Source of the DNA: a virus
Virus record (IMG/VR): IMGVR_UViG_3300025132_000022
Coordinates: 57,519 to 121,518 of that record
DNA: 64,000 nucleotides
Direction: 5' to 3' (one strand)
Part shown: piece after piece, positions 7,118-63,585 of the stretch
Layout of the letters: the number at the start of each line of letters is the position of its first letter
Numbering within the stretch: the first letter of the stretch is position 1
Made by a program: the position numbers and the translations under genes
The notes under the pieces: model-generated
The model's database searches: none
What the model saw: only the letters and a program-made list of their open reading frames with translations
What the model was told of the DNA's origin: nothing

Positions 7118-8944
7118 TTAGCTAGTCGCACCTGCTTCGCCAGTGAGACCTCTCACGATAACAAGACCATACATATCTGGTCTAACCATCTTCTTAGCGT
7201 AACGGGTCATAACACCCTTACGTGGTACGAAATCTTCCGTACCGAAAATGGTAGGCGTTACCTGCAATGGTACGTATGGAGCGTATACGAAACCGCTCTC
7301 AAGGAAAGAATTTCCTCTACGACCTACAAGAAGGATGTTCCTTGGGAAGTATGGATCTACCATAACGTCAAACTTCTTGCTGAGTGATCCTGTCTTAACA
7401 GCACCGATGTCACCACGGTCAGCGTCTGCCGTAACAGAAGCGCGGAAACCGCTTGTGAACTCAAGGATGTTAGCAACCTCTGGTGAACAAACAACAAAGT
7501 TTGCACCACCGCGAAGTGTCTTTCTGTGGATCTGAGCACTTACGTCATTGATTGTCTCAATGAGAGTCTCATACCACTCGCTAACGGTACCAGTGAAGTC
7601 TGGCGCTGCCGAAGAAGCACCAATCTCTGCACCAGCGGAGTTAACGAAAAGACCTGGAGCGCGTGACCAGTAACGAGTACCAGCCTTAGCACCTTGGATA
7701 AGGTCACCAAGAATTTCTTGGTCGATTTCAAGAGCAATTTGCTCTGAAAGAATACCAGTTAACTCGACCTCTGCGTCCAAGTTGTGATAAGCATTGAGGT
7801 CCTGACCTAACTCAGGGGTCCACTTCGCCTTCAACTTCTTGGTCTGAGCGGTAACAGCAATACTGTCTACCTTGATGTCGATCTCTGCGATTCTTGAATC
7901 CTTTCCAAGTGAAGATCTGTTAGCGTTACCGTCAGCAGCGCCTTCCAATGGGAAGTCACTAGCAACAACAGCACCAAGACCACTTGGAGAACCTGCTGCG
8001 CCAAAACTATCATTCAAAGGATAGTTAGCGACACCGATTTGATCCTTGCCAGCGCCTGCTTCAAGAGCAGTGCCTTCGAAGTCAATCGAAGCGGCAGCGG
8101 TATCAACAAGAACGATACGAATCGTAGTGCTATCAACCTTCTGCGTCAAACGACGAACATGCTTTGTCGTTGTTCTGAAGTCGTCTACACCGCCGATGTT
8201 GTCGTCAAAACCACGGATCTTGCCCGCAGCAACCTGCAACTCAATTGCATTAAGCGCGTCTTCATTAAGGTTTGAGAGTGAATCAAAATCACAATCTAAA
8301 ACCTGGACCTTGTACGTTGTGTTTGCAAGAAGATCTGCGTCATATCTTACCAACTTCTTCTCAGCGTCATCAAGAGCAGATACCAACTTACCACCTGCGG
8401 CAAGTTGAATGGTCAGAATACCAAGACCTGCAGTATCCGCAGCATCGACAGAACCAGTTGCGTGCGTGTAACCAGTACCAAGGTCATAAAAACCACCAGC
8501 ACCGTCTTGGGTAAGATCCTCATCAAGGTTAACACCATTGATCAAGTTACGACCTACGACGTTACCACCATAGATTGACTCACCAGCGGTCATACCCGCA
8601 ACATTGTCACTGTGGACAAAATCCAAGAAGAAGATAAGTCCACTTGGAAGACTCATAGGCTGAACGCTTACGAGTTCGTTTGCAATCAATCCACCGAATA
8701 CACGACGGACGATTGGGAAAGCAACTGATGCGAAACCTTCGACATCACCTGCAGACATTGAGGATGCTTCACGGAGAAGCTCCTTTGCTTGGTTCTCAAG
8801 GAGAACCGCCATACCATTTTTCTGAGAATCGTTCGTAATACCCTCTAAAAGACCAGTCTTTTCCCACTTTTCAAGAAGTGCTTGACCTTCCTTAGAGACG
8901 TCACGTCGAACAATACCTTCAGTTAATTTTTCTAATACAGACAT
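7118..8944 (-). CDS. 23: Major capsid protein, gp23-like
   Basis: This 608-residue protein matches T4 gp23 in order. An N-terminal helical propeptide region is followed by a VQPMSLPSGLIFFLD segment near residue 95 (T4: VQPMNSPTG). A LKAKWTPELGQDLNAYHNLD block near residue 370 leads into SEQIALEIDQEIL (T4: LKAKYSIELAQDL and LEINREVV). Late in the protein come GGANFVVCSPEVANIL, FDVMVDPYFPRNILLVG and FVYAPYVPLQ. It is larger than T4 gp23 (521), mainly through an extra beta-type region between about residues 150 and 345. T4-type capsid proteins lose their N-terminal part to the gp21 protease, which is encoded upstream. The start at 8944 has AGGAGG in good position, and a terminator follows the stop. 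It forms the icosahedral shell. Confidence 0.95.
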   Translation of the reverse strand: MSVLEKLTEGIVRRDVSKEGQALLEKWEKTGLLEGITNDSQKNGMAVLLENQAKELLREASSMSAGDVEGFASVAFPIVRRVFGGLIANELVSVQPMSLPSGLIFFLDFVHSDNVAGMTAGESIYGGNVVGRNLINGVNLDEDLTQDGAGGFYDLGTGYTHATGSVDAADTAGLGILTIQLAAGGKLVSALDDAEKKLVRYDADLLANTTYKVQVLDCDFDSLSNLNEDALNAIELQVAAGKIRGFDDNIGGVDDFRTTTKHVRRLTQKVDSTTIRIVLVDTAAASIDFEGTALEAGAGKDQIGVANYPLNDSFGAAGSPSGLGAVVASDFPLEGAADGNANRSSLGKDSRIAEIDIKVDSIAVTAQTKKLKAKWTPELGQDLNAYHNLDAEVELTGILSEQIALEIDQEILGDLIQGAKAGTRYWSRAPGLFVNSAGAEIGASSAAPDFTGTVSEWYETLIETINDVSAQIHRKTLRGGANFVVCSPEVANILEFTSGFRASVTADADRGDIGAVKTGSLSKKFDVMVDPYFPRNILLVGRRGNSFLESGFVYAPYVPLQVTPTIFGTEDFVPRKGVMTRYAKKMVRPDMYGLVIVRGLTGEAGATS

Positions 8945-13776: not shown

Positions 13777-14581
13777 TTTCCATTTCCTCGACCAACCCCT
13801 GTATCATCAGGACCTCAGATACTAAATTGTCGTCAACTTCCTTGTCACTATATGATTCTAATTTTAACATAATGTCGTCATATTTCGTCTTCAGGTCTTC
13901 GCCCTGAAGGAGATCACTGTTTTCGAAACTTCTCAACTTTGTCTTCAATTCTGACACCTGGTCGTTTAAATACACCTTAAGTCCCAAAGAGTTGTCTGAA
14001 AAGGACGCGATGTAATTCGTCAGTAGTTCTCTTTGATTATCTGGCAAGGATGCGTATTTTTTATTAAAACTTTCAACAAATGTCCTGTAGGTCAGGTTAT
14101 CAATGTGTGTTTTAGAGTCTGAGTCCTCCTCAACGGTCAGAGATTCGACAATCTTCTGTTCCAGGAGCATCTTTTCCTTTATTGAGGTTTTATCGTTAAA
14201 AATATTATAAACAGTTGCGAGGTTCTTGTAGTTTGGGACAAAATTGCCGAACACCTGAGATGATAAATTGTAATTAATTTCCTTAATTAATTTATTCTGA
14301 CTTGTAAAAATGTCTTGTCTGTCAAGAGATGCATATCTCTGCTTTGCCTCAGTTAGTATAAACTTCGCTGTCTCCTTTGTTAAGTTCTTGGATTCCAGGA
14401 TTTCTTTGTATATTTTCAATTCCCTATTTAAAACACCGCTCTTTGAAAAATGCTCTTTAATGATGTCTCTAACAACGGTCTGTCTTGCAGTGTTCTTTTT
14501 AACGACAGACTTAACATACTCTCTCGTAAGTGCTTCAAATAAGAAAGCGGTATTTCTCTTTTTGTTGTGTTTTAGTCTCAT
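13769..14581 (-). CDS. Conserved helical protein downstream of the portal
   Basis: This 270-residue protein is largely helical with many Lys, Glu, Leu and Asn residues. It begins MRLKHNKKRNTAFLFEALTRE, an N-terminus recalled from several marine T4-type phages without a known role. Coiled-coil-like stretches occupy residues about 90-130 and 205-260. By place (portal, then this gene, with the protease further down) it corresponds to the T4 gp67/gp68 prohead-core zone, although it is longer. It overlaps the portal by four bases and the next gene by eight. AGGGAAA is the ribosome site. Confidence 0.6.
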   Translation of the reverse strand: MRLKHNKKRNTAFLFEALTREYVKSVVKKNTARQTVVRDIIKEHFSKSGVLNRELKIYKEILESKNLTKETAKFILTEAKQRYASLDRQDIFTSQNKLIKEINYNLSSQVFGNFVPNYKNLATVYNIFNDKTSIKEKMLLEQKIVESLTVEEDSDSKTHIDNLTYRTFVESFNKKYASLPDNQRELLTNYIASFSDNSLGLKVYLNDQVSELKTKLRSFENSDLLQGEDLKTKYDDIMLKLESYSDKEVDDNLVSEVLMIQGLVEEMENA

Positions 14582-16548
14582 TTTTTGGTTTCCCTGTTTT
14601 GTAATTCTTTAATAAGATCAGATACTTCTTTGCCTCTAAGAAATATATTCTCCTCTTCTCTAATATAACTAGTAAGTTTAGACTCCGAAAGTCTCTGCTT
14701 ATCTTCCTCAACCACACCTCTAGATAAAGATTTTAGTTTCTTGTATCCAGGAATGGTCTTATAAGATTGGGTCCGACCTCCAGTGTCTCTCTTGTCTCGT
14801 TCGCCAGTCACCTGTTTCGTGATATGTATCTTGCCCTTTGCTCTCTTGTGTTTCGCATCGTAAGAGTCTTCCCTGGATCCTGGTGCTGCTAGTAGCGCTC
14901 CAGCGTCTTCTTCTCCTGCGTCTGCACCCAGATCTGCACCGAGGTCTCCTTCGCCTCCAAGAACATCCTCTCCACCTGTAGTGTCAATACCTTCTCCGCC
15001 TTCTCCACCTGTGCCGAGGTCGGTACCCAAGATATCTTCCTCACCGCCTGGTGTGCCGCCCGCTGCTGCGGTTGCTTCTGCTTGCGCCTGCTCTGCAGCA
15101 GACTCAAGGCGAGCGTCGAATTGTCTATCGTAATACATTTGCCTTTGGTTTTTGACAAATTCTTCCTCTGTCATGCTGAACAGGTGAGATGCAATCCACT
15201 GTCTGCTAAAGAATCCTTCAGTCGCTGTTGATGCAACGTCAAACTTAGTCTTCCAGTGTTCCAGTTCTTGGAGTTCTGCAATCTTAGACGGACTATTCAT
15301 CTTTAATTTGAAATTAATCAAATCCTCGCCTCGGTAACCCAAGGTGTAAAGGTGCACGATGCCTATCTTTTCGAGTTCAGTAACAACAGATCTTTGCAGT
15401 CTTTGCACAGTTCTGGCAAATCTGATGTCCTTCTGTGCTAGTGTGGTGGCATCTTCACCGCCACCCGCTTCTGCGTTCGTGTTTGAAATATAGGAACCTG
15501 GGATTTTCAATGCAGAGAATAACTTATCTCTCAGGTACTTAACATCCTCGATGTCGCCAGTATAGGTGCCACCTGGTAAACTCTCGACTCTAGAACTGGA
15601 TCCCGCGCGTGTAGGTATGAAGTAATCTTCATCAACAGACATAGGGTTATATCGCAAGTCAACACGCCCCGAAGCAGGATCAACCACCTGGTTTCTCTTC
15701 ATTTGCGTCATAACCTTTTGCATGTATTGTTCTATATCTTGAGGTGGTATATTGCCCACGTCGATGTAGAAAACACGGCGCTCGGGTGATCTCACAATCC
15801 TATATGCCATCATAGCATCTTCAAGTAAGGTCAACTGTCTCCAAATACGCCTGGCAGGTTCTAGGACCGATGTGCCATAAGGTGCGTACTTGTCGTTACC
15901 CAATATCCTAAAGTGTCCAATTTGCCAGTTTTCAAACGTTAAACCTGCCGAGTTCCACTGAAACTGACAGTAGTTAGGGTTTGTTTTGTCCTCGCCTTCA
16001 AGTCTTTCTAGTTCCTGTCCTGGCATCCCTATAACGCTTTTAATTCCTAAGTTCTCATCTATATCAAGATAAAGAAAGAAGTCGCCGTACTTAACCATCG
16101 TTCGGCACCATCCAAAAATATTGTACTCCAAATTCATAATACTGAAATACAATGCGTGCAATATTCCCTTTATTTCTTCGTTGTTGCAATCTATTGTCAT
16201 CAAGGGTTGCAAGGCACTATGAGTAGTCATCTCATCTGCATATATGTCTATAGCGGAGGCAATCTCGGGTGTGTACTCCATTTGATCAAAGTCCACATAC
16301 CTCTCTAGTCTGTTTTGATTGTTTTGAGCGCTTCCGTACAATCCAGCAAACGGGTTATGGTCCATTCTCTTGAATTGCTTTCCGCTGGCGGATGTGAATC
16401 TGCTGGCATACTTATCTAACTGCCTTCTTCTTAATCGTCTTGCCGTCTGGGTCCTGTAATTGACAATGGGACCTGATAGTAGTCTTGTCAGTTTTTTGAA
16501 CAATGTACTCTGCTGATTTTTCGGGTTTACTTTTCTAGGTCCTGCCAT
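14578..16548 (-). CDS. 20: Portal vertex protein, gp20-like
   Basis: This 656-residue protein has T4 gp20-type features. It starts with a basic segment and has DFDQMEYTPEIASAIDIYADEM near residue 90. Further on are GWCRTMVKYGDFFLYLDID, a LEPARRIWRQLTLLEDAMM helix near 230, RAPERRVFYIDVGN-like sequence (here SPERRVFYIDVGN), and LKIPGSYI with EDATTLAQKDIRFARTVQRL. The ring of portal subunits forms the DNA gate at one vertex of the head. T4 gp20 is about 524 residues; here a Gly/Asp/Glu-rich stretch at about 496-552 (GGEGGEGIDTTGGED) and a basic tail follow. The terminase gene lies just upstream by five bases. Confidence 0.92.
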   Translation of the reverse strand: MAGPRKVNPKNQQSTLFKKLTRLLSGPIVNYRTQTARRLRRRQLDKYASRFTSASGKQFKRMDHNPFAGLYGSAQNNQNRLERYVDFDQMEYTPEIASAIDIYADEMTTHSALQPLMTIDCNNEEIKGILHALYFSIMNLEYNIFGWCRTMVKYGDFFLYLDIDENLGIKSVIGMPGQELERLEGEDKTNPNYCQFQWNSAGLTFENWQIGHFRILGNDKYAPYGTSVLEPARRIWRQLTLLEDAMMAYRIVRSPERRVFYIDVGNIPPQDIEQYMQKVMTQMKRNQVVDPASGRVDLRYNPMSVDEDYFIPTRAGSSSRVESLPGGTYTGDIEDVKYLRDKLFSALKIPGSYISNTNAEAGGGEDATTLAQKDIRFARTVQRLQRSVVTELEKIGIVHLYTLGYRGEDLINFKLKMNSPSKIAELQELEHWKTKFDVASTATEGFFSRQWIASHLFSMTEEEFVKNQRQMYYDRQFDARLESAAEQAQAEATAAAGGTPGGEEDILGTDLGTGGEGGEGIDTTGGEDVLGGEGDLGADLGADAGEEDAGALLAAPGSREDSYDAKHKRAKGKIHITKQVTGERDKRDTGGRTQSYKTIPGYKKLKSLSRGVVEEDKQRLSESKLTSYIREEENIFLRGKEVSDLIKELQNRETKK

Positions 16549-16553
16549 TATTA

Positions 16554-18140
16554 TTATCCTTTAAACAACCAGGGGTATTGTGTGTAGTTCCTGTCATGTG
16601 TCTTCTTTTTTTCAAAAACATTGTCACCATCGTAACCCTGCATACCTTTTATTGTTGTGTTCATTTTAGTTTTTGCTGATACCATTGTAGCAAGAAATGC
16701 CTTATTATATTCTATATTTCTCTTGTTTTCAATCAAGGCAGTGTCCCTTACCCAACATCCTATTGCACATGCCATAATTAAATCATCGTTGTACGATCTC
16801 ATTGCTTCTGGTCTTCCGTTGTTCCAAATAAAGGTCTTCATCTCGTTATAAAGACGAGGCGAATTTATGGTAATTAGTTCATTTCTTACAAATTCTTCCA
16901 ACTTTGCAACAATCAAGGGTCTTGTCTTTTGACTAGTTGTAAAACCTGCAACTGCATTGGATGCTGCCTCTGCAGTAACTTGGTCAACGTATTCGTGTGA
17001 TGACTTTATTGAGTGATACAAATTTGGGTACTGCATTTCTCTTAATTTGTCCAAAACTGCAAACCCCACAGTGTTGTTCTCAACGACCAACATGCAGTCG
17101 CCGTATTCTCTTCCTGCGTCAAAAAGTATTTTAGAAAACAGGTCTGGAGTTATCCTTCCTTGATATTCCGCCACAATCTCCATCGTCAAGGTGTCGAATA
17201 TGTGAAATACCGAAAAGTCCTTACCGTCACCCCTAGCAACATCGGCACTTAAAAGATACGGTACACCAGATTCCGCCTCTTTCCATATCCAGTAATTTCT
17301 GTCAAAACCCGTCCTGTACTTTGGTTCTGAAACGAATTGCGACAATATCTTCATTCTATCTGGGTGAAACACTGTTTCGCCCGACATGTTAAAGTTACAC
17401 TCCAACTCTTGGGCGATCTGCCTCCTGGACATGTTCTTTGTTTCTTTCTCAAACCATTCTTGGTCTCTGTCTGGATGAACGTCCCACGGTAATGTCATGG
17501 GAAGAAAGTCATTTGACTGAGTCTCGGCATCAGTGAATGTCTTATGAAACCAATTGCCAACACCATTAGGAGTAGATAACGCTATGCATCGACCACCAGT
17601 TGAAAGAGTGGGATATAAACCAGTCCACAACTCGTCCAAACCCTCAACGTGAGCGGCCTCGTCAATAACTAAAAGAGAAAGTGCCTCAGAACGCCCAGCG
17701 TCGCCAGAGGTTGATGATGCCTTTATTTGCGAACCATTGGACAACTCAAACGAAGTTCTATTATCAATTGAAACCTCCGCTATTCTTATCCACTCTGGAC
17801 AATTTCTCAATATTGTTTTCACCTTCTTTACGAGGTTTGCTGCAGTGCCGAACTTGGTTGCCAAAACAAGAACATTCTTCTCCTTATGAAAAAGCATCAA
17901 CCAAACAACATACGCCGCAGTAACAGTTGACAAACCCAACTGTCTTGCTTTCAACACTACATTAAATCGATTGTCTTGAAAGTTCTTAAGTGCGACCTTT
18001 TGAAAGGGGTAGGTCTTAAAGGGTATCAACCCCTTGAGTGGGTGAGTAATTTTAGCATAATTGGTGATGAAATAGTCTGGGTCTCGTCCCGACTTTACTA
18101 TTTCTCGCATTATTTCTTTCTTACTTAAGACTGAGTTCAT
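16554..18140 (-). CDS. 17: Large terminase subunit, gp17-like
   Basis: This 528-residue protein is the motor-nuclease that packages DNA. The ATPase half has a Walker A variant at residues 64-72 (KARQLGLST) and Walker B at 156-161 (LLVIDE, with D160 and E161), with a motif-III-like SGDAGR and ALSTPNG region nearby. The nuclease half has D300 (LLSADVARGDG), E354 (LVVENN) and D452/D453 (YNDDLIMAC) as the RNase-H-fold metal ligands. Length is slightly less than T4 gp17 (610). It is followed by the portal after five bases and overlaps the gene before by four bases. AGGAAG is the ribosome site. No classical gp16 small terminase was identified. Confidence 0.95.
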   Translation of the reverse strand: MNSVLSKKEIMREIVKSGRDPDYFITNYAKITHPLKGLIPFKTYPFQKVALKNFQDNRFNVVLKARQLGLSTVTAAYVVWLMLFHKEKNVLVLATKFGTAANLVKKVKTILRNCPEWIRIAEVSIDNRTSFELSNGSQIKASSTSGDAGRSEALSLLVIDEAAHVEGLDELWTGLYPTLSTGGRCIALSTPNGVGNWFHKTFTDAETQSNDFLPMTLPWDVHPDRDQEWFEKETKNMSRRQIAQELECNFNMSGETVFHPDRMKILSQFVSEPKYRTGFDRNYWIWKEAESGVPYLLSADVARGDGKDFSVFHIFDTLTMEIVAEYQGRITPDLFSKILFDAGREYGDCMLVVENNTVGFAVLDKLREMQYPNLYHSIKSSHEYVDQVTAEAASNAVAGFTTSQKTRPLIVAKLEEFVRNELITINSPRLYNEMKTFIWNNGRPEAMRSYNDDLIMACAIGCWVRDTALIENKRNIEYNKAFLATMVSAKTKMNTTIKGMQGYDGDNVFEKKKTHDRNYTQYPWLFKG

Positions 18141-20073: not shown

Positions 20074-23000
20074 TTAGACGCTGACATGTGCGAAACCGTC
20101 TTTTTTGTCAATAACGATCTGCGTATCCACTGCGTCTTTAAGAGTATCTAGGTGTGAAATTAGTATAACAGTCTTAAAATATGACTTCACCATATCAATA
20201 ATTCTGACAAAACCTTCCATATTATCCTCGTCCAGCGCTGTACCTGGCTCGTCCAAAATGAAGATATCTGGTTTTGGAAGACTTGAAACCGACAGTAGCG
20301 ATAACCTTATTGCCATCGATGCAATTGTCTTTTCGGCACCCGAACCCATCTCTAGTGGTCTAGGTTCAAACTTGGGATGTTTAATGAAGATATCCAGTTT
20401 CTTGTCCTCGTTTAAAATAAACACCTCGAAGTCAACAATGCCTGTCAAAATCTTCGCAATCTCTTCATTTATCACTGGTAGTCTGTTCTTTATAACGTTG
20501 TATGAAATTCCATTAGTGTGAAAACAGGTCATAAACAATTCATATGCTGCATACTCTACTCTCAGAGACTCCAACTCTTCCTTGTCATCTTGAAGATTTT
20601 TTATCTGCTGCTCCACAGATCCAACCTCTCTGAACAGGTTGTTTGTTTGTTTCTTGCAGGATGCACAGTCCTTCTTGAGTTTGCCAGCGTCCTTCTCAAG
20701 GGAATTCATTTCGCTTATGAGTTCTTCCAGGTTCTCAATTGCTTCACGGTTATCATCGTACTGCTTCAGTTTCGAGTTCAGTTTCTCTATAATAGAATCC
20801 TGCACGGCGATGTCGCTCACGCCTTTGTCAATCTTCAGTTGAAGGTTAGTGACTTTTTCAGACAACTCTATTTTTTTATCCTTTACTTGTTGATATCTTT
20901 CCAGATAACTTGAAACTTTTATCTGCTCATCAGAACTATACTCTTCACCGATCATATTGATCTGCTTAGAGACGCTGCTCATGATAGATTGCCTGTCAGA
21001 TATTGCTTCTTCTACTATAGATGAACATTCCTCGCACAAACGATCTTGCTGAGACACCAGTAGAAATTTCTGCTCTGATGCTTTTTCAAGGTCTCTCAGT
21101 AGACCTTCTATCGCTTCTTCCCTCTTCGCAAAAGAATCCCTCTTGTCTCGATACTTTTCAATGTCAAACTCCGAAAGAAACTTTACAATCTTTTCATACC
21201 TATCTTTTGACTCTTCGATCTCTGTTCTGTTGTCAAGCAATACGCCCTTTAGGTTGCTTAACTTTTTAGTCGCAGTCTCTTTCTCCATATTGATGCGGAC
21301 GGGATCGATAATCTCTGTTGGAGCAGCGTCAACTTTACCCTTAATGGTAGCGACCCGCTTCTGAAGGTCCTGTACTTGCCCCTCCATTTGTTTGCATCTT
21401 TCTTGATTTTTCTTAAGTATCTCATTCTTTTCGACCAGAACGCTAGTTGCTTGTTCGATTTGCTGATCATAATCATTTCCCTCCAATCTCCTCAAAGCGC
21501 CTCGTATGTCGGCGGACTCATCTTTTGCCATTTTAAATTTTCTGTCGAACACTTCCAGGTCAAGAAACTTGGCAAGGATTTCTTTTCTCTTAGTTGATCC
21601 CTGATTTATAAATGTAAGAGAATCCAGTTGGGACGCCATTGATGTCATCAAGAAGTCGTCCAGGTTTCCAAAGTATTTCCTAATGTTGTTGTCAGTGTCT
21701 TGTCTGGATGTTCCATTTAAACTTTCAGTATTACCAATCGCGTCACTGGAGTAGAAGTTAACATCCGTCTTTGCTTCCTCTGTTTCCACACCTTTCAGTT
21801 TCTTGGTGTACTTCTCAGATATGCGCTCAATACTCAGTTCCTTGTCCGCAATCTTGATTGTTGCTTTGGCGGAACCTACATCCATGTTTTGATTAATCAT
21901 GTTTAAGTTTTTTCTGACTGACTTGGAAGTTGAATTGTACACTGCATACAACAAACTGTCAACAACGGAGGACTTACCCGAAAAGTTCTTTCCGAAGATT
22001 CCAACGATACCCTCCAGTTTTGTAAAGTCTATCTTGTTGTTAGATCCATAATTAAAGAGACCATCCCACTCTAGCGACTGCATACTCCAGTTTACATTCC
22101 TGTAAACTTCTTCAGAGTCCTCAATGGTCTTGTTTATTTTAGAGTTTAGGGACAGTACCTTTTCCATCACTTCCTCGGCGACTTCATAGTCCTCAAGGTA
22201 GTCCTTGATTAATCTATTTTGAACATTGATGTTCCTAAGATCTTCCTGTCGTACCGTGTCACTCTCTACGTCCAGTGCTTTACTAGATGCTCTATTTAAG
22301 TACGTTATGCTTTCTGGTTTGAATTTGAATTTAGCTATGTCAACGCTTCGGCGCATGACATCGAGCGAGATGTTCGAATCTGCAACCAACCTTAAACGTG
22401 CACCATCTGGAATCTCTGTGTCAGGTAAAGTCCCATCTTTGTTGAGGTTTATAGTAACAAAGGGTTGCGGGTTCTTGAATGTAATCAACTTACATGTAAA
22501 ATCGTCCTTACTGGCAATATCCCAAAGCAAATACCCCTTATCCAAGGACTCTCCAAAGTTCTGTTGTACAGTTGAACCAGCGTACCGAATGCGACCATGA
22601 GTATCTAAAATTTGCGTTTTGTGTATATCACCAAGGAAGGCAAAATCAAATTCATCAAAAATGCTGATGTCGTGATCTCCGCCCAGTGTCCAATTCAGAT
22701 CTGTTTTCGATTTATCGATAGCACCGTGATAGAGTGCAATGTTGACCGCGTGTTCATCTGTAGGGTCTGTCCAATTGTCTTCGTCAAATACAGATAAAAC
22801 ATTTAGGCAAAACCCGCCCTCTAAGCGATGTTCTCCAGCGTTCTTGAGTAAGACTATGCGATCATTGTCTAACGCCTTCACAATGGGCGATATCGCATCC
22901 TGACGACTATCATTTTTCAGATTGCCGTCGTGATTTCCCAGTATAATGTAAGTTGGTGCAATTTTGGCAAGTTGAGTGAAAAATTCTCTTGCCATGTCAA

Positions 23001-23169
23001 CAAACTCTGGAGATATCTGTGTCTTTGTGTGTGCGATGTCTCCGCAATGAATTATGTAATCTACCTTCTCCTCTTTTAGAGAAGCGTACAATTGCTTGAA
23101 GACTTCATTATATTCATAGTGAAACTTAAGGTTGCGGATATGCGTATCCGCGATGTGGGCAAACTTCAT
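20074..23169 (-). CDS. Fused Mre11-Rad50-type exonuclease (gp47-gp46 in one chain)
   Basis: This 1031-residue protein joins a T4 gp47/Mre11 nuclease and a gp46/Rad50 ATPase in one frame. Metallophosphatase motifs are D8 and H10 (IADTH), D44 (HCGDIAH), GNHD (78-81), ALYHGAI, and a GDIHK block. The C-terminal part has Walker A near residue 390 (GKNFSGKSS), long coiled coils with CxxC pairs (CEEC near 711 and CASC near 836), a signature-type motif (MGSGAEKTIASM) and Walker B (FILDEPGTALDED). A final switch His follows (ISHLDTL). It resects DNA ends in recombination-dependent replication and repair. T4 uses two separate genes (339 and 560 residues). The summed size and order support a natural fusion with no internal start needed. 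The ribosome site is CGGAGG. Confidence 0.93.
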   Translation of the reverse strand: MKFAHIADTHIRNLKFHYEYNEVFKQLYASLKEEKVDYIIHCGDIAHTKTQISPEFVDMAREFFTQLAKIAPTYIILGNHDGNLKNDSRQDAISPIVKALDNDRIVLLKNAGEHRLEGGFCLNVLSVFDEDNWTDPTDEHAVNIALYHGAIDKSKTDLNWTLGGDHDISIFDEFDFAFLGDIHKTQILDTHGRIRYAGSTVQQNFGESLDKGYLLWDIASKDDFTCKLITFKNPQPFVTINLNKDGTLPDTEIPDGARLRLVADSNISLDVMRRSVDIAKFKFKPESITYLNRASSKALDVESDTVRQEDLRNINVQNRLIKDYLEDYEVAEEVMEKVLSLNSKINKTIEDSEEVYRNVNWSMQSLEWDGLFNYGSNNKIDFTKLEGIVGIFGKNFSGKSSVVDSLLYAVYNSTSKSVRKNLNMINQNMDVGSAKATIKIADKELSIERISEKYTKKLKGVETEEAKTDVNFYSSDAIGNTESLNGTSRQDTDNNIRKYFGNLDDFLMTSMASQLDSLTFINQGSTKRKEILAKFLDLEVFDRKFKMAKDESADIRGALRRLEGNDYDQQIEQATSVLVEKNEILKKNQERCKQMEGQVQDLQKRVATIKGKVDAAPTEIIDPVRINMEKETATKKLSNLKGVLLDNRTEIEESKDRYEKIVKFLSEFDIEKYRDKRDSFAKREEAIEGLLRDLEKASEQKFLLVSQQDRLCEECSSIVEEAISDRQSIMSSVSKQINMIGEEYSSDEQIKVSSYLERYQQVKDKKIELSEKVTNLQLKIDKGVSDIAVQDSIIEKLNSKLKQYDDNREAIENLEELISEMNSLEKDAGKLKKDCASCKKQTNNLFREVGSVEQQIKNLQDDKEELESLRVEYAAYELFMTCFHTNGISYNVIKNRLPVINEEIAKILTGIVDFEVFILNEDKKLDIFIKHPKFEPRPLEMGSGAEKTIASMAIRLSLLSVSSLPKPDIFILDEPGTALDEDNMEGFVRIIDMVKSYFKTVILISHLDTLKDAVDTQIVIDKKDGFAHVSV

Positions 23170-23180
23170 CGAACCTCCGA

Positions 23181-23369
23181 TTAAATGTTTACGTTTTCGT
23201 TAATGTGGGTGAATAGTCTTTCTAGAAAGTTGATTTTCTGATTTTCGTTCAATGATTCGAACTGCTTGATGGTATCTTCTGCCATAGAAAATCCCTCACC
23301 GCTGGTGTCGAAGGACCTCTCGATCTCTTCACTAATTAATGATTTTAACTTCTTCTTATCAATAAGCAT
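23181..23369 (-). CDS. Small hypothetical protein between primase and Mre11-Rad50
   Basis: The start at 23369 (MLIDKKKLKSLI) gives 62 residues and has GGAGG eight bases upstream inside the primase's last codons. A longer frame to 23390 lacks it. The sequence is helical, with acidic centre (EIERSFDTSGEG) and a C-terminal QFESLNENQKINFLERLF helix. There are no recognisable motifs. It lies in the DNA-metabolism block and may assist one of its neighbours. Confidence 0.55.
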   Translation of the reverse strand: MLIDKKKLKSLISEEIERSFDTSGEGFSMAEDTIKQFESLNENQKINFLERLFTHINENVNI

Positions 23370-23373
23370 CTCT

Positions 23374-24300
23374 TTAACCTCCAAAGTCAAGTGTTTGTAA
23401 TAAGTAGTCCTCTCGTGTTATAAGAGAGGCACGTTTCTTATACTCGCTCAATAGATGATCTGGCACTTCTCCCAGATCAGGATAATCATATAGTTTAATT
23501 TTACATACTTTGACACCAAAGTCAAGTAAATTCTTGACTATTTTTAGTTCTTTTTGTTTGGCGTCCTGATCTAAGCAGATATATACTATCTTGCACTTTT
23601 CAACTATCTTCATAAAGAGTTTGCTCTTCATGTTTAGTGTTGATCCCAAGATCGGAATGCTGTTTTCGTACTTAAGAGAATCGAAAAAACCCTCAACAAG
23701 AACCACAGGTTTGGTCCAGTCGACAAATATGTCATTAAACACCACATCTCTAGAACACGGTGGATTCTTATATTTCATATAGCAGTTGCCGAAAGATCTT
23801 GCAATATAGTAATTCAACTCACCACTAGAATCAAAAGACGGAACTACAACCCTGTTCTTATACGGACCATGAAAGCAGAACCCCATCTTATAGAGAAGTA
23901 TGTCGGCGAAGGTTACACCCCTGTCTAAAAGGTATTTCTTTGCTTTCTTGCCGATAGAGGAAAGTTTCGCACTAGACAGAGATGTAAAATGCTCTGGAAG
24001 ATCTAAACTCTCCTTCATTACATACTTGTCTTTTTCCTTAAACAATTCATCAAATCTGGTTATCTCAACCTGATTTACGAGTGAGTTCCACCTGGACCTC
24101 AACTCCCTATCTCTTATGAGGGTTCCCAGATTATTTCCACGATAGTCACAGATCCAGCACTTAAACGCATTTTTGTTTATGTTGACTGACATTTTTCTTT
24201 TGTGATGATTGCACTTGGGACAATAGAACAACATCTCGTCGTTCGACTCGTAATAAGAACCAAGACTTTGTTTTATAATACTTAATTTTTCACTATACAA
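23374..24300 (-). CDS. 61: DNA primase, T4 gp61/DnaG type
   Basis: This 308-residue protein has an N-terminal zinc-binding motif (CPKC at 27-30, His pair at 32-33, CWIC at 48-51) followed by a variable linker. The Toprim core has VVLVEGFFDSLKY near 200 and YICLDQDAKQK near 245. That arrangement matches T4 gp61, which makes RNA primers for lagging-strand synthesis together with a helicase. A gp41-like helicase is not seen in this window. The start codon appears to be TTG at 24300, overlapping the RuvC-like gene by 19 bases; the next in-frame Met would remove part of the N-terminal segment. The start is therefore less certain than the gene. Confidence 0.9.
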   Translation of the reverse strand: MYSEKLSIIKQSLGSYYESNDEMLFYCPKCNHHKRKMSVNINKNAFKCWICDYRGNNLGTLIRDRELRSRWNSLVNQVEITRFDELFKEKDKYVMKESLDLPEHFTSLSSAKLSSIGKKAKKYLLDRGVTFADILLYKMGFCFHGPYKNRVVVPSFDSSGELNYYIARSFGNCYMKYKNPPCSRDVVFNDIFVDWTKPVVLVEGFFDSLKYENSIPILGSTLNMKSKLFMKIVEKCKIVYICLDQDAKQKELKIVKNLLDFGVKVCKIKLYDYPDLGEVPDHLLSEYKKRASLITREDYLLQTLDFGG

Positions 24301-24806
24301 AGATTATAACCCGCTTTCGCTATTACCCAACTATCTGACTTGTCCATGATACCTGGTTTTACATTTCCATTCTTTGTATATTCTACTATGAAAGTGGGTT
24401 CATTTGCAACAACAAAATCAAAACTTTTTTGTTTTCCCTTTTCGCCTTTGGAAACCTTTATACCAACCTGCTTTCTGGCCGAGGTTGCTGCGAGCATCTC
24501 AGGCATACGATCAAACTCATTCCAGCACACCCAAGACACTATGCCATTGAATCTAGACAGTGTCGACAAGGTCTGTGCTGAAGAGAATCCAGAACGAAAA
24601 GATTGTAGTGACTGCTCTATGAAAATGTGTTCAAATTTGTACGGCAAGTCTTGCAACATCCTCTTTACGTAGTCTGCCTTGTGGTAGATTGTTGGGAAGT
24701 GATTTTTGTTCCTCGTGTCCCAATACTCGTTATACACGCATTTTCCACTCGCATCAAGAACAGTCACGCCTGTTATGCTTGTTGATACATCTAACCCTAG
24801 AATCAT
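24282..24806 (-). CDS. RuvC-like Holliday-junction resolvase/nuclease
   Basis: This 174-residue protein has the RNase-H/RuvC signature: GLDVST near residue 4 (first Asp), an acidic residue in FIEQSLQSF near 65, and DKSDSWVIAKAG near 155 with two Asp ligands. RuvC-type nucleases cut recombination or branched packaging intermediates. T4 itself uses the unrelated gp49, so a RuvC fold is a lineage difference also found in other phages. It is next to the primase and a J-domain gene, within the DNA-metabolism block. ATG at 24806 follows GGACAA and overlaps the end of the J-domain gene by four bases. Confidence 0.87.
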   Translation of the reverse strand: MILGLDVSTSITGVTVLDASGKCVYNEYWDTRNKNHFPTIYHKADYVKRMLQDLPYKFEHIFIEQSLQSFRSGFSSAQTLSTLSRFNGIVSWVCWNEFDRMPEMLAATSARKQVGIKVSKGEKGKQKSFDFVVANEPTFIVEYTKNGNVKPGIMDKSDSWVIAKAGYNLCIVKN

Positions 24807-37176: not shown

Positions 37177-40100
37177 TCAAATACTGATATTAGGTATGGC
37201 TGATCTCGACTGGCGAGGTGCTCTCAATCCTTCAGTGTCTAACTCTGCTCTCCTAAACCTAACTTCGGCACTAATATTAACTAGTTCGATTAACGAAAAG
37301 TAATCATACGGCCAATTAAAACCGTACTCGAAGACATCATTTTCTACATTCAGCGCTCGCTCTGGGTGGTTCAAAGGCAACCTGTCTCTGATTTTCTTCT
37401 TGAAGTAGTTTGCTTGCGCCTTTTGCTTGACCTTGAAAACTATCCACTGCACGTCTTCATCCAGTTCTCCATTGTTTAGCAAGAAACTATCTTCTCTATC
37501 TCCCAATTCATGAAAAATTGCATTCGAACTTAAAACTCGACTGCCGTCAGCGCCGCCGAAAGTATCATCGCCGATGCTTGGTGACACGTTTTGCCATATT
37601 TTTGCAAGATCATCTCTCGTCAAAGTAACCGAAAACTCGAATAAATACATCGCAAATGGTTCGATATATTTTGTTTGTGGATTATTGTACTTCAAGAAGT
37701 TGAACTGAGGTGGAATATTGAATTCCAACATAGATTTAACCATCTTAAAGATTGAACGTCTGGGTGTAACTACTCTGGGTGGATCAGGCAATCTATCATT
37801 AGACGCTGGGCCAGGTAAGGTACCGCCCGATCTTCTAACCGCTTCAACATCCAAGATGTTCGCGTTGTCTCTCTGAGATCTCCTGCCCTCTTCCGTGTCA
37901 ATTTGATAGTTCTTAAATCCTAGATTTCTAACTGACTGATATACTTCATCTTTCGGTAGTTTGAAAAACTTTCTTTCCCCGTTGACTGTCCTAAACGGTA
38001 TTGCTACGATTGCTTCTTTTATTGTACGAGAGTCTGCGAGTTGACCTACCGTCTGCGTTTCGTTGTCTATGCCCAACAACTTTGACAGATCACTAGACCC
38101 GTTTCCTGGGATGACTCTAACTGACGGTCTCTTTCTAGTTCTGTGTGATCCCGTCTGGTGCCAAACCCCTCTCACTCTTGGCAAGTGTTGTATAGTCTTT
38201 GATGTCCTTGGCTGATCGATGTCGTCATAAGCAACTCTGGAAAAGTCAAATGTAGGACATTCGAACTTACTTTGGATCACAATGGAGGACCTATCGGGCA
38301 ACACTGTTCCATCCGTGTCGTAACTTTGTACAAGAGAGTTGTCCGACTTCAACTGAAGTCCATTGAAACTTTCTGAAAGTTGCATTGCATGAGCCCTGTT
38401 ATAAGATCCAACCACTGTGTTGAATCGATCACTTTCGTTGGAGACGAATCCACTCGATTTTGATGAAATCGATCCCGTGGCAGAAACCCTTCTGTAATAA
38501 ACAATTTCTGTATCTCTAGCGATCTCAGCAATCGTTGTATATGCTGGTCCGTCCTTTGCTGTAAATGTAAGCATTGCTCTAGCATATCCATCGTAGTGTG
38601 GTGGCAAGTATGGAGAAAAACCATAACCAACAAGGTCAGCAGATCTACTAAAATGTGTCCCGTTGGGGTGTGTATTTCTGAACTTTCCAGCGTCAAAAGG
38701 AATTCCGAATGCTGCAGGATTGTTGTACATTGGGTTATCTCTTTGAAACGAGCGGCGAAGGCCCGCGTTTAATTCAATGCCCATCTTGTACTCTTTTCCA
38801 ACTTCTGGTTCAAACTGAGGAGTGTCCGCTGAAGTGATCGTTACACCTCTTCGGTTTGCCAAGAAGAAATCCAAGCACTCTGCGTAAAAATTACTTGCAG
38901 CATAAGAGTAGACTGTTTTGCCTGTTTCTTTTGCGTCCGAAAGATTGAACACTGCCAGCGTAGATCCAGAATTCTTTGCCAACCCAAAATGGAAGTTTTC
39001 GTCTGTCTTATAGTTAGCACTGTAGGAGTCGTTTGCAACCCAACTAAAAGATTGTTGCTTGTGATCGTTTTGCCCCCTGTAACGGCGGGCGTTCGTAACG
39101 CTTGCCAAAATACTAGCACTAGGGTGTGGTTCCACTTCGTAAAACAGTGCGTTCTCATCTCTCATCTCAGGAGTATGAACGGCGGGGTCTATGATTGCCT
39201 CAAAGGGAACTCTAGTTATAGAACGTATTCCTGTATTCTGTAAGTCCATCTTTTGTCCCCAACCGTGCGAACCGATTGGTTCTGTTCCGATATCTGATGA
39301 CCCCGTGAAGTGGTTGTGTCCATAACTGGCAGATCCGATTCTTGGGATGGATGCATCATCTGTGAAGTTAAACTTACTCCCCACAACAAAAGACGGTATC
39401 ATTATTGAACCAGTGCAAGTAGAATAGGAACTGCTCAATTCAACGTTATTATCATGGAGCACCTTTTCCTGATAGTCGTCTGGATCTGTAAAGTACGTAC
39501 CGTCTTCTATATTGACATACCACGTTTTGTAGTCCCTTCTGTTAACAGGCGTCGCGGTTGGTGCGCCAGTATAAGAGTACCCAGTCTCGGTGGCATATTT
39601 ATATGTGTATTGTGCGGGATTAGAAACGTCAACAATGCCGTTGTATCTCTGCCTTTTTTTATTAGAGTACCTAAGATCATTCGCTAAAGATCCAGTCCAT
39701 TGTGTAAATCCATAAAATGTACCAGTTAAGTGATTATACTTTGTCGGCATATTAAACCCGTCGTATGAGGGTGCACTACCAGTTGTGTTATTTATTATCC
39801 TGCCAGTAAAGAGTGGTTGAGCGTGGTTAAACACATGCAACCCATTAGGGTGAGGGTCCAAGTACCCCGTATCTTGCCCAGGTCGATACCACCCTATAAT
39901 GTTGTTTGCTGATGCGCCTAGTATAGAATAAGGATTTCTTGGTCCAAGGGTGTCGCCTATCGTTTTAAATACTTGCAATGTAGTACCAGCATTGTCGCCG
40001 CCCGTCATTCCTTCAAACTTTGCAAGTCCTTCCGTAAAATCTGGAGTTGTGTTAACATACCCACTCAAGGACTTTGCCATTGCATCTGTGCCTGGAGTGT

Positions 40101-43100
40101 TGAGAATGACCATTTCTGTTAGCATGAACTCAGATGGTTTTAAGTAGTCCAGCGGTAAGTCTTGACTGACGCCTTCTGTTGCGATGATGTGAGAAGCGGC
40201 ACCGTTAACAAAATTGGTCTTACTCAATCCGCCTGCGCCTGTTCCACCAAGAGTGACGGTTCCGTTACCTGATGGCCCAAAACTTCTCTGTCTAATCGTT
40301 ACAGTGGTTGAATTAACGGTAGCGGTTAATAGGCGATTTGCATTTAAGCAAGTCGCTATGTTAGTTGCTGTTACAGCAGCAGATCCACCAATCGCATAAG
40401 TAGGAGCATCAGTGTGTGTTGCCGAGGTCGTCCCAGCGTGTGCTGTAGCTACAATCGTAGTACCATCAGTGGCGTCAAAAGTTATAGTTGTATTTCCTGC
40501 GCTCAAACTACCATTATTTGTTACCTGGACCGTAGCAGAGGCAGCAACTGGCGTAGTGCCTATGTTCGTTGCTTCGGTTGAATCTAGTTGTCCGTCAATG
40601 TGAAACTTATCTTTAGGATCGACATCATTGAGTGCAATATCTTCAAGGTAACCTTTATCGTTAGCATCGAGATCTGGTCTGGAATTACCATGAGGACCAA
40701 TTCCAGAATTTGCACTAATAGTTCCGTTACTAAGAAGTGTGTTTATCCTGTTGACATACCCTAAGTTCCCTCCAATGAAACAGTTTCTGCTGCCATCTAA
40801 TCTAGGAAATGCAGTATTTGTGCGGCCGCCCACTCCCGTGTAACTGAAAAATCCAGTGGAAGCATTAACAACTGCAGCGGCAGTAAACTTTTCTCCGTTT
40901 AACCAAGCGTCAAACCCTGTGATACTACCAGCGCCACTGTTTACGTTTGAATATCCTATGTTGTCTAAGTCAAGGGACAGTAACACATGGTTCCACCCAG
41001 GTGACATTGCCTTGTGTTGATTTATTTCCCCAGAAGTCGATTGCCTACTGATAGAGAAGTACTCTGTACCATCACCACCAGAGCAAATGAATCCAACGGT
41101 GTGTCTTCTATCTGGCGTGTAACCTGTACCATTTATAACGGTACCTCTATGGTGATCGTAGCGGCCGCCAAGAGAATCGACACCTACATAGTACCCAAAA
41201 TGAACACCCTTCTTCCACGCATTTGCTGTGTCATCTGAGTTACCAAACGATGCAATACATCCTTTTTGCCTGAGTGCACCAATAGTAGTTCCTGGCCACA
41301 TGTCACCCGAGAACGCTGTTGAGTACGTCTTTGGTAAATACATCCAAAATGATACGGTCAATGCTTTGCCAGATACACCTTCGCCGCCTGGTGCATAACT
41401 ACCAGAGACAAGTTTCGCCCAGTCAGAACCGCCGCCGATCTCAATTCTGTTTCTAGAGAGTTTTTTGTCTTTCTTAACTGCCTGTACACTTTCACCGCTT
41501 CGATAGTTCCATGAACCCGCTTCGGTTCCGCCAGTGTCGCCCCTTAAACTAGCAGACTGAAACATTACGCCATACTGATTGTACAGTCTGTCTTCTTGTG
41601 GTTCAATAATTGGATAGTCTACTGCTATACCAGACTTGACCGTATTGAATCCGATACCAGGTGCGTAGTACGGAGCAAGTGCATTTCTCCAATGTCCACC
41701 AGAAACATGAGTGCTATAAGATGAACTAAACTCTGTCGCTAATTGTACCATTCTGTCTGCTGGGTAGAACCCTCTGTAAGGTAGGAATTTTTTGTACGCT
41801 CTGCATCTCAAGATAAACTCTGCTGGTTCGACACCCTTAATTTCTGCCATCTGCTCTTTCACAATGTCAAAATCTTTCAGAAAGTCTGAATTACTGTAGA
41901 CTTTATAGAAATTTTCCTCGGCGCTGTTGCTGGGTTCGGTTACCTTAGATCCCGTTATGTTCAAGAAAGAATCATTACATGCAAAAAATGGATCTGCTCC
42001 ACCAACTTCGTTAACGTAATAGTTCATGTGATCGCTTATTTTAAACTCTGGTACAATTGAGTAATTCTTTGCAATCAACCTAGATTGTTCTGAAAAGTTC
42101 TCAAACTTGTCGAACTTAAACGGAGTGCTTCTTGATTGATCAGGAATCTTGAATGTCTGAGAATTGTATAGATGGTGATCGATCTTGTCATTTTTCTGAT
42201 AGATTGCCACCAGTTGCTTCTTTGGCATTTGTCGAAATATCTTGTCGTAAGTTTTAAAATCTGCTGATGATATTTTGGATACACCAATGTTCTCCCCTGT
42301 TTCATCGCCAAAGTGATCAAGTGCACCGAAAGACAATAAGGAGTGCTTTGGATTAGTGCTGGTGGCATAATAGGACTTAGAATTGCCTGCAAAAATTTGT
42401 GCTGACGGGAATGAACTTGTTGGGTTGCGTGATGCGTCAATAGCAATCTGTTCAGAATTAAAAAACAATTTAAATTCGTCTGACGGGTTTGTCTTCTTAG
42501 AGTGATATATTGTTGGCATGTAAATATTCCAACCTGGTTCATTTGCGCCGTTTGTGGGTGCGCCCTGAACAAATCTTACGTCTACCGCGCTGCCGAGTCC
42601 ACCTGTAACATATACTGAGTGGTACTTGAATATCGGATGTCCACTTGTTCCTTTCGTTCTCCTGTGTTCATCTGTTGCTAATATTTTTGCAACAGTTGTC
42701 CAGTTATTGTCTCCACTGTCTCGGTCGCTGACCCCCAACTGCACATAGAGTGGATAGGAGCCAGAGTTTAGTGAATCTATTTCTCTAATACCAAACGCGT
42801 CATCTGTGCTAGAACCGCTGTTTCCTGTTCTTAGGTGAAAATTAATTAACACTGCCTTTGATGCATCCACCAAAGCGCCTGTTGTCTGGATGTACCTGAT
42901 ATGAGAATGAGAACCCATATAGGTATCGTCATTTGCCTCATCATAACCGTCGAGCGAGGTGTTGTATGCAATTGGTGCCCCCATCAATGCTATTGGTGCA
43001 ACATGGTCTTCTGGATTGGAACCATTAGTTGTCGCATTATAAATTCTTGGACCAGTAACAGGAGATCCATTTTCTGCTGTTTGATTTAAGTGATTGCGCA

Positions 43101-46100
43101 TCCCAATAGGGACACGGCCGTAATCGGAGTATCCTTCTTCATCGTCTACACCACTAAAACCGTTTCCAAATCCATTAGAGTTTGGCAATGACATCGTAAG
43201 TGCTGCGTATATGTGACTTAAGTTGTGTGCCGCCGCAGCCACGGGTTGGTTTCTCCAATACGGCGCAACAGCGAAATCTGAGAAGAACTGTGCTTTTCTA
43301 TGGATAGTCCATGCTAGTTCAAGTTCTTGAAAATCACCTTGCACAGGTACACTCGCTGTTGCTTGCATCGGGAACGGTCTGGCGTACAGGGCGCTAGGTA
43401 TTGGGTCCGCAGCATTATTGTGAAATATGGAGTAATTCGCAAACAACTCGCCGCTACCGTCAGAACCCAAAGTGTCCGTTGTTTTACTCAACGCAACCGT
43501 CTTAAATCCATCTGGTGCGTCTAGAGGCCAAACGGAAAGTTTAGGGACAGTATATCCTTGAGAATTTACGCCGTTGGTTTGAGTTCTCTCGTCTCTTCTA
43601 TTCTTCCAAAAGTCTTTTGCAGAAAAGTCAACCCTCTCTCTCGTTCTTTCAAGGTAAGTGTTCTCTTCTTTGGGAAAAATGTTAATCCGATATATTGCCA
43701 TAGAAGAACGTGGTCTACTTAAATCAAAACCTCTAAGCATATTGTTGTTAAAGATGGACACCTTCGATCCATCAGCAGTGTTAATTTTCAAAAGATCTGT
43801 TAAATCATCTGATGCAAATTTACCGATAACATTTTGAAAAGAAAACTTATTACTTGCAAATCTTGGCCTGTTTTCACTATCTCTGACGATACCGAGCAAT
43901 CTAATTGGTTGCTTATTGGACGATACTGGAGGGTCTACAAACCTGAAATCAGTACTGGACACATCTCTAGACCTGACCGATGTGACTTTTTCGTGTCCTG
44001 TGGAATCTGGCCATGAATAGTTGCCCAGCGTATTTGTACGAACAGTAGTTATTCGACCCTCTTGTTGAGAGGTGGGCGGGGCATAGATATTGTTTCTTGC
44101 GATATGCCTACCCATTTGGGTCTGTCCAACTCTTAATTGCTTCCAACTTGGATAACCGTAGGGGCCCTGTCGATGTAATATGCTTCCCGACAGTAAGGCA
44201 CTACCAGAGAGTGTATTGGTTGTTGTATTTGTTCCTGGGTCAAGAATATCATTCACATCACTATTTGGCATATTTAGTCCAGCAAAGGTGACAGTGTAAT
44301 CTTCTTGACCCTTTCTCTCTCGACCAGGCAATATCCTACCTCTTGTGCCGATACTGGCGCTCAAGAACGGGTATGTCCTTTCATACTTCAGAGACCCTGT
44401 GGCACCAAGGATGGATGCGTCTGTGAAGGAGTGTAGGTGTCCTGCGATTTCAACCTTTCTCCTTCCTGTGTTCAGGGACGCAGTTATCCACGCATACTGA
44501 TAATCATTCTGCGGAATGGGATGTTGTACAAAAGCATTATCCCGATTTACATCCGTCTCGCCTTTATATCCATCAATTGGTCCGTCGCTTCGCATTGCAA
44601 AGCGATGTCTCGGGTTAGGATTAACTTTGTGGTTAGTCGGTAAACTCGTGTGAAAGAATTTAATATCCCTCAGTCCGTAGTGATCGAGGTCAGAACCAGC
44701 GGTGAATGTTCCCGCAATCCAGCGAACATAAATATCCTCTGTTTGCCCTGCTATTGATACATCAGCATCATGAAATTGATGTGTGCCTGCATCATTGGCA
44801 TGAGATATTGTCAGTGCTGTTTGGTAAACACCTGACAACCCTACTTTATATTGAAAAAAGAGAGGTTCGTTTGACTCAGGATTGTTGGTTAATCCAAAGT
44901 TTTGACTGAGTCCTGCATCGTCCGCTCCAATAATGTACTGAAATTTTATACGCACTGGGGTCTTTATCGGTGAATCATATTGAACCCATCGGAAATATGA
45001 TCGTGCAAACAGTAGTGGCAACCCTAATCCGACTCCGTTGACGTGGGTGTCTCGGTTTCCCTTTAAGGCCAAGATCTTCGAAGATGTGTCGGATGAGTTG
45101 TGTAAAACTCTAGGTCCGAGGGTCTCCGTCTCGTCGCTTTCGTTACTTGTCCACCCAGACGGTAATGTGTCTGTTGTTACATTTCCAAAGTTAATTGATA
45201 AAAACGGTCCAGGTGATCGAGGATCTATTCCAGTCTGGGGTATTTCGTTTAGAAAGTTTAGAGGTTGACGAACTGTCAAATTTCTATAGTTCAAAGAATT
45301 GTATACAGAATATTGATTAGTCTCCCTGTCAAGTCCATGTCCGCCCCTACTATCTCCTGCGACTTCAGGTCCGCCAGGGGAGGAAAACCTTGCCTTAAAT
45401 ACCGTTTTGCGGACTGGTCTTGCAAACTTTGCAAACTCCTTTACACCTGGTATTCCACGAGAAACTGAAGACGTCATTTGCTCCAAGTTGTCTATGAGGA
45501 AATCTTTTCTCTGGTCTTCAGACGTATATTGCACAATATCGTACATATGGTTAAAGTTACCAAGAGAAATACTAGATGTTGTGCTTTGTATGTTATCTAT
45601 ATTTACAGGTCGTTTCGCCAGAGGTGTTCTTAGGACCTGCGCGGACTGGAGACTGTGGTCTACGACTGGTAAATTATCACTGTCTATCTCCATTGAGGTT
45701 GGCGGTAACACATACAACTTACTGTCCTGTGCCAGGATCCTGAACGCTTCCTGTCTGCTTCTGCCATCCTTCTTTGCGTCCATATTTCCCAACAGCGAAG
45801 CGGACAGGTCTTGATGCCTATGTGCATTGCCCCCGACCCAGCGCTCGGTGAATGGAGATTGTAAGGTAACTTCTCGATCATCACCATATTCATCGGAATG
45901 CAGGTTAGTTATGTCAACGCCTTTTTTAAATTTCTCATGAAGGTTCGCCTGGTATCCAGAAATTGGATCCAGCGAACTGCTGTAAAGTGTAAATGGTGCT
46001 ATGTCGTTTACATCCATATCCCTATTGGAATGGGATATGTCCGCCGATGCCTTCACTTTATGCTTCCTGCTTGGGTTGATCACATCCTTACAGGGGTTTG

Positions 46101-54782: not shown

Positions 54783-55166
54783 TTAACGAACTGAATTTAG
54801 ATCCAATGATAAATCAAGAACATCATTGGACAAAATTCCACTTATAAAATAAATCATTTTAATATTCAAAACTTGTTCCACCGTATAGACCTCTAACTCT
54901 CTTATGACGACTGAAGGCATGTATGTTGCCAGTTGGGTCACGATCCTGCTTCTTAATTCGGCAATCGACTCGGGAGTGTCGTTTTCAAATAAAAACCTCC
55001 TGATTCCGACGCCAAAATCTGGTATCATGACTCGCTCGCCAGGACTAGTCAGAATTACATTTTTAATATTTTGTTTCGTATTTTCTGCCAAGTTTCGGGT
55101 TAAAGACATTCCGTTTTCTGCCTTTGAAACATTGATTGGTATTTTAGGTCCAAACCCAATACTCAC
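54783..55166 (-). CDS. 25: Baseplate wedge protein, gp25-like
   Basis: This 127-residue protein starts with GTG at 55166, preceded by GGGGAGGAT, and overlaps the large protein before it by four bases (GTGA). It matches gp25 in length (T4 132) and motifs: NLAENTKQNIKNVILTSPGERV near 25, then MIPDFGVGIRRFLFEND and a middle helix (ELRSRIVTQLATYMP), ending with VIRELEVYTV and LDLSLDLNSVR. Gp25 belongs to the phage baseplate wedge and works with gp6 in the sheath-initiating part of the tail. The GPW/gp25 family includes a lysozyme-like fold in some members. Confidence 0.93.
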   Translation of the reverse strand: MSIGFGPKIPINVSKAENGMSLTRNLAENTKQNIKNVILTSPGERVMIPDFGVGIRRFLFENDTPESIAELRSRIVTQLATYMPSVVIRELEVYTVEQVLNIKMIYFISGILSNDVLDLSLDLNSVR

Positions 55167-63583: not shown

Positions 63584-63585
63584 AT

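Follow-up and report, generated by a model that had tools for sequence, protein, structure and literature searches.

A phage gene predicted to encode Mre11 and Rad50 in a single chain, and its viral relatives

Background

The Mre11-Rad50 complex, made of a nuclease and an SMC-type ATPase, is an M2R2 assembly in its separate-chain form. The bacterial example, E. coli SbcD/SbcC, consists of two chains from adjacent genes, with a 1048-aa SbcC carrying a CxxC hook (CPLC) and a GHIH motif in the nuclease. In phage T4, the same two activities belong to gp47 and gp46, whose genes are likewise separate, with 46.1 and 46.2 lying between them.

Fusions of both proteins are known as well. They were described starting from Mimivirus R555 by Yoshida, Claverie and Ogata 2011 (PMC3175470), who argued that abundant aquatic homologues of R555, often located near primases, are phage genes, included a case from a Bacillus phage, and noted that R555 has Asp where P. 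furiosus Mre11 has His206. The idea of a fusion is therefore not new, and such fusions are common in aquatic phages.

Here we analyse one such gene in a stretch of 64,000 nucleotides (the window), which belongs to a virus record of 121,518 bases (IMG/VR IMGVR_UViG_3300025132_000022, positions 57,519 to 121,518), together with its viral relatives.

Results and discussion

The gene and its domains

The open reading frame translates with zero internal stops, and the profile searches divide its product into two halves (Table 1). Pfam assigns Metallophos to residues 1-183 (4e-12) and SMC_N/AAA_23 to residues 365-1021 (2e-9, 4e-9); PHROGs assigns an SbcD-like family to residues 1-346 (2e-33) and an SbcC-like family to residues 311-1029 (1e-46). 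Mre11 and Rad50 in one uninterrupted frame of 1031 residues, as the preliminary description had read the sequence, are thus borne out, and the motifs that it had named are present: D8/H10, GNHD at 78-81, GDIHK at 180-184, GKNFSGKSS at 393-401, MGSGAEKTIASM at 941-952 and FILDEPGTALDED at 970-982.

The Mre11 half comprises the phosphoesterase (D8, H10, D44, N79/H80, H148, D181, H183), a capping region and a helix-loop-helix at 314-351; the motifs DxH, GDxxD/H and GNHD and two C-terminal metal-binding motifs are all present. The ATPase half has a complete set of Walker A, signature, Walker B and D-loop, the C-lobe carrying GSGAEKT, FILDEP and ALDE as the last three, along with H1006. Among 106 distinct sequences of the family, D8, H10, D44, H47, H80, D81, H148, D181 and H183 are invariant in the nuclease half, and K399, S943, G944, E946, D973, E974 and D980 in the ATPase half.

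The AlphaFold2 model (pLDDT 78.5, pTM 0.47) has globular heads and two long helices, 539-708 and 713-882, which form the arms of the predicted coiled coil and are joined by a turn at 709-712; the low pTM is put down to the long flexible coil of the model. At the domain border, the model places helices at 314-328 and 332-351 and the next strand at 360. The protein thereby has the helix-loop-helix/capping region and the linker of about 9-12 residues of the fusion proteins of Yoshida et al. 2011.

Table 1. Features of the predicted single-chain Mre11-Rad50 gene and its surroundings, in window coordinates
Feature	Position	Strand	Remarks
Single-chain Mre11-Rad50 gene	20074..23169	minus	1031 aa + stop; ATG start at 23169, end at 20074
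Ribosome-binding site GGAGG	23174..23178	minus	4 nt 5' of ATG
Mre11/SbcD half, residues 1-345	22135..23169	minus	PF00149, phrog_100, secondary structure
Rad50 N-lobe, residues 358-538, Walker A GKNFSGKS	21556..22098	minus	Pfam, PHROGs, model, conservation
Predicted antiparallel coiled coil, residues 539-882	20524..21555	minus	AlphaFold2 model; covarying pairs
Predicted zinc hook C712-E-E-C715	21025..21036	minus	hairpin apex; model, conservation, covariation
C592	21394..21396	minus	first member of covarying cross-arm cysteine pair
C838	20656..20658	minus	second member of cross-arm pair
Rad50 C-lobe, residues 888-1031	20077..20508	minus	Pfam, motifs, conservation
69-aa ORF	23181..23390	minus	between primase and fusion; kept only in close relatives (8 loci)
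Primase	23374..24300	minus	directly upstream of fusion; phrog_47 1e-38
RuvC-like resolvase candidate	24282..24806	minus	upstream of primase; phrog_159 4e-4 (weak match); syntenic in 48 loci
T4-like capsid Gp23	7118-8944	minus	match 4e-70
T4 portal Gp20	14578-16548	minus	match 1e-80
T4-type large terminase	16554-18140	minus	T4-like structural gene

The predicted zinc hook and a covarying cysteine pair

Two CxxC pairs had been noticed in the chain, 125 residues apart, and which of them is the zinc hook was left undecided. Both are present, the real spacing being 123 residues, and the AlphaFold2 model puts CEEC 712-715 at the tip of the coiled coil, not CASC 835-838. At least two cysteines occur at positions 700-730 in all 106 distinct close relatives, mostly as C-x6-C (PCGxxFPxCKFIKDA), the CxxC form of the hook being confined to the lineage of the window gene and a few others. 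Covariation between the two arms, calculated as APC-corrected mutual information with sequence weighting (effective 70 sequences), points to the same place. In many leading inter-arm pairs the residue numbers add up to about 1428, so that the hairpin is centred within CEEC, on residue 714; of the 40 top pairs, 17 fall within 8 of this sum against about 4 expected (binomial 7e-8, for a window chosen after seeing the data). Because the turn of the model, the apex cysteines and the centre of covariation coincide, CEEC 712-715 is the predicted zinc hook.

The same analysis ranks the pair 592-838 first of 53,343 (z = 8.0). C592 is found in 89 and C838 in 90 of the 106 sequences; 87 have both, 14 neither and 5 one only (Fisher 7e-13, with no correction for relatedness). 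CASC 835-838 is rejected as the hook: C835 is incidental (14/106), and C838 pairs across the coil with C592, so that CASC appears to contribute one half of a cross-arm cysteine contact. As a tentative reading, C592 and C838 may face each other across the arms as a thiol staple, a metal site or a redox switch tuning head-to-hook signalling, in most of the family alongside a C-x6-C hook; a cytoplasmic disulfide is not assumed for this putative contact. We found no description of such a second site in the coiled coil.

Occurrence of fused and split forms

IMG/VR yielded 58 relatives at the first scan and many more in later ones, at least 598 of its viral contigs matching one motif of the fused family. 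Fused and split forms were counted, as had been proposed, among 182 related loci: 154 of them (128 distinct) have both halves in a single ORF, a figure that is not an unbiased fused-to-split ratio, since the loci were picked by similarity to a fused protein and some are the same contig fetched twice. Nearly all of the other 28 either run off the end of a contig or are long single ORFs of which the alignment covers only a part.

In the collection of annotated phages, isolated and huge phages have the single-chain form too: Microcystis phage Mel-JY01, Tenacibaculum phages pT24, PTm1 and PTm5, Chryseobacterium phages MA9V-1 and MA9V-2, Sphingomonas phage PAU and the huge phages LR756501 and LR756503. 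In phage records these proteins are named only "metallo-phosphoesterase", "DNA repair exonuclease" or "AAA domain". An apparent fused gene in Rhizobium phage RHph_TM21B (L107:6001-8858), its frame broken by two masked N runs, is absent from the annotation. Two separate genes were found in T4, S-SSM7, HTVC008M, Moorella phage MTATph1, Lactobacillus phage 3-521, Stenotrophomonas phage Mendera, Vibrio phage PG07 and Enterococcus phage Revolver; those of Mendera and PG07 overlap, an arrangement from which a fusion could easily arise.

Outside viruses, a plasmid scan gave no full-length relatives of the fusion and a first genome scan no cellular ones. A wider cellular scan gave matches only in metagenome-assembled contigs, which are probably phage sequence binned with bacteria. 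One of them, a supposed bacterial chromosome from a WOR-3 MAG (CP070664.1), contains a phage fusion gene of clade A, at 57% identity, that runs into a masked N stretch followed by unrelated sequence; it is possibly a chimera or a prophage and is no evidence for a cellular relative.

Comparison with R555, T4 and E. coli

Foldseek with the predicted structure returns R555-like proteins of giant viruses first and over their full length (Tupanvirus 6e-58), at 17-23% identity, and then Tenacibaculum phages; among solved structures it matches Chaetomium MRN, E. coli SbcCD and archaeal and bacterial Mre11-Rad50. With R555 the window protein shares a nuclease followed by an ATPase in one chain, GDxxH with Asp for His206, and the helix-loop-helix with a short linker, although R555 is longer (1351 against 1031 aa). 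The metagenomic sequences of 2011 were fragments, whereas the window gene is of full length and belongs to a phage whose head genes are of T4 type. These genes, the primase upstream and the R555-like fold matches fit the prediction made in 2011. The single-chain homologues of cultured and huge phages have the same order and motifs in one ORF and form one clade with the window protein, but their identity to it is about 31% or less, and those of Tenacibaculum and huge phages are longer chains.

T4-type capsid, portal and terminase and the same assumed role connect the window phage with T4, yet the separate-gene arrangement of gp46/gp47 is absent, T4 has GHFH instead of GDIH and falls on another branch of the tree. 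E. coli SbcD/SbcC resembles the window protein in its two activities, its CxxC hook and its structure, and differs in being two chains; the genome records of E. coli and T4 agree with the preliminary description, which had cited both as separate-chain systems. The Asp that matches His206 is D181, invariant in 14 aligned fused proteins, while the split forms of T4, HTVC008M, Moorella phage and E. coli have His there. Split Vibrio PG07 (GDLH) and fused Sphingomonas PAU (GHIH) are exceptions, so this Asp is not a strict marker of fusion. In place of His206, it could mean altered metal use or activity.

Origin of the fused clades

In trees of each half and of both combined, four fused phage clades group together with 98-100% support in the first set; with more split pairs, support for this grouping was 69% (Mre11 half), 100% (Rad50 half) and 100% (combined), in a sample of split pairs that is small and from which R555 is missing. 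These four clades, which hold most fused phage forms, appear to share one origin. Xanthomonas phage phiXF1 lies outside the fused group in the Rad50 and combined trees, which suggests a separate, second fusion. Its protein of 951 aa (L106:6001-8856), listed as a hypothetical protein, is an unrecognised Mre11-Rad50 fusion with a CPTC hook.

Fused genes that are split again

Of 80 loci of one clade, 31 are broken and 49 intact. The break falls within the nuclease active site, at a single point between GDIHK and YPGS, in a 484-kb huge phage (L002:5944-10166) and in freshwater and soil phages (L082, L205-L232, L240 and L241), the habitat being a reading of metagenomic origin rather than one made contig by contig. 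A tail has been added to the first fragment (e.g. "FREVEIEIDEDDLYKYPGCTIIE"), and the second has a new start and a head ("MGKKIKIKVKKPWIAYPGS"). A gene for a 301-aa Vsr-like endonuclease stands within the gap in L216 and L226, a shrunken remnant of it in L220/L222 and a different endonuclease in L002, while in most other broken loci only about 110-160 nt separate the two fragments. In a tree, broken forms are scattered among intact ones, which means that the gene was broken, or the broken form transferred, more than once. An intron at the break was considered for L002 and L082 and rejected: Rfam finds none, and both fragments have their own starts and added tails.

Genes in pieces are known from T4 mobA/topoisomerase and Aeh1 mobE/nrdA (PMC2988022). 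By analogy, the re-split Mre11-Rad50 genes match this pattern, some copies still retaining a homing-type endonuclease gene. A limited literature search found no earlier description of Mre11-Rad50 genes in pieces.

Genomic setting

The primase stands upstream of the fusion in 71 of the 73 clade A/B loci with enough upstream sequence, in a comparison that left out the loci of the IMG/VR scan behind the figure of at least 598 contigs; the same order is found in Microcystis phage Mel-JY01 and in the 484-kb huge phage. A RecA-family gene is located elsewhere in the virus record. No further SbcC or SbcD is found in its 121,518 bases, the record being a fragment beyond which a second, split copy is possible. 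The window has T4-like structural genes, yet the fusion stands in place of gp46/gp47. Two giant ORFs are located on the minus strand at 37177-50652 (4491 aa, with the concanavalin-like lectin domain PF13385) and at 55163-63589 (2808 aa, matching no Pfam family).

Proposed function and its alternatives

We consider it very likely, judging from sequence, model and analogy, that the gene encodes a complete one-chain Mre11-Rad50 (SbcD-SbcC) enzyme for recombination-dependent replication and repair. Two such chains, in contact at their Rad50 ATPase heads and Mre11 parts, would build an M2R2 body like that of the two-gene complexes, and the hairpin 539-882 would end in the predicted zinc hook C712/C715, joining the coiled coils. 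As ATP drives the heads open and closed, they would control the metal-dependent nuclease, and this may trim the ends of broken or replicated DNA and so allow the phage RecA-like recombinase to load; the role would be that of T4 gp46/47. The nuclease:ATPase ratio of 1:1 that fusion had been expected to fix is indeed fixed, without changing the stoichiometry, because the separate-chain complex already has it. What the fusion fixes is co-synthesis and local concentration.

That the single frame is an artefact of assembly or sequencing joining two genes has practically no probability left. No stop lies between the halves, and the one-ORF arrangement recurs in the 154 loci and in several isolated phages, whose genomes already refute the artefact. 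Two products from one gene are improbable. Translation could also begin inside the gene at M335, where the Mre11 part ends, and yield a Rad50-type chain of about 697 aa, so that fused protein and free ATPase coexist; no other candidate start close to the border between the domains has a fair site (for M335, GAGG lies 5 nt upstream and the anti-Shine-Dalgarno energy is -5.9 in the window). Such an internal start, named in the preliminary description as what would speak against a single chain, is thus weakly indicated in the window but not conserved in the family: the position is ATG in just 21 of 41 members, and its mean energy is -3.0 against a mean of -6.7 kcal/mol at the native start (84% at or below -5) and a background of -2.0. 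We reject the second product on account of this lack of conservation.

The assignment to recombination, finally, may be questioned on the grounds that the T4 record annotates gp46/gp47 as required for recombination and for host-DNA degradation, and that SMC-like heads occur in defence systems as well, Lamassu and JetABC being among the fold matches. A protein acting mainly as a degrader of host DNA, or against host defences, nevertheless seems unlikely to us: a primase and a RuvC-like gene lie nearby, a RecA-family gene is present in the record, and the sequence is of the Mre11-Rad50 type, not of the Lamassu type. A single-chain Mre11-Rad50 for phage recombination remains the preferred reading.

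Conclusions

What is new here is the assignment of the hook, the covariation of C592 and C838, the one origin of four fused clades and the re-split genes, the first three as far as models, alignments and trees indicate. Full-length phage genes are now known where the paper of 2011 inferred them from short metagenome sequences, and the viral contigs found by the motif scan show how frequent they are. A single-chain Mre11-Rad50 of about 115 kDa is a convenient subject for studies of structure and mechanism, and the family offers specific points for testing in its cysteine pair that covaries, its C-x6-C hook and its re-split genes.
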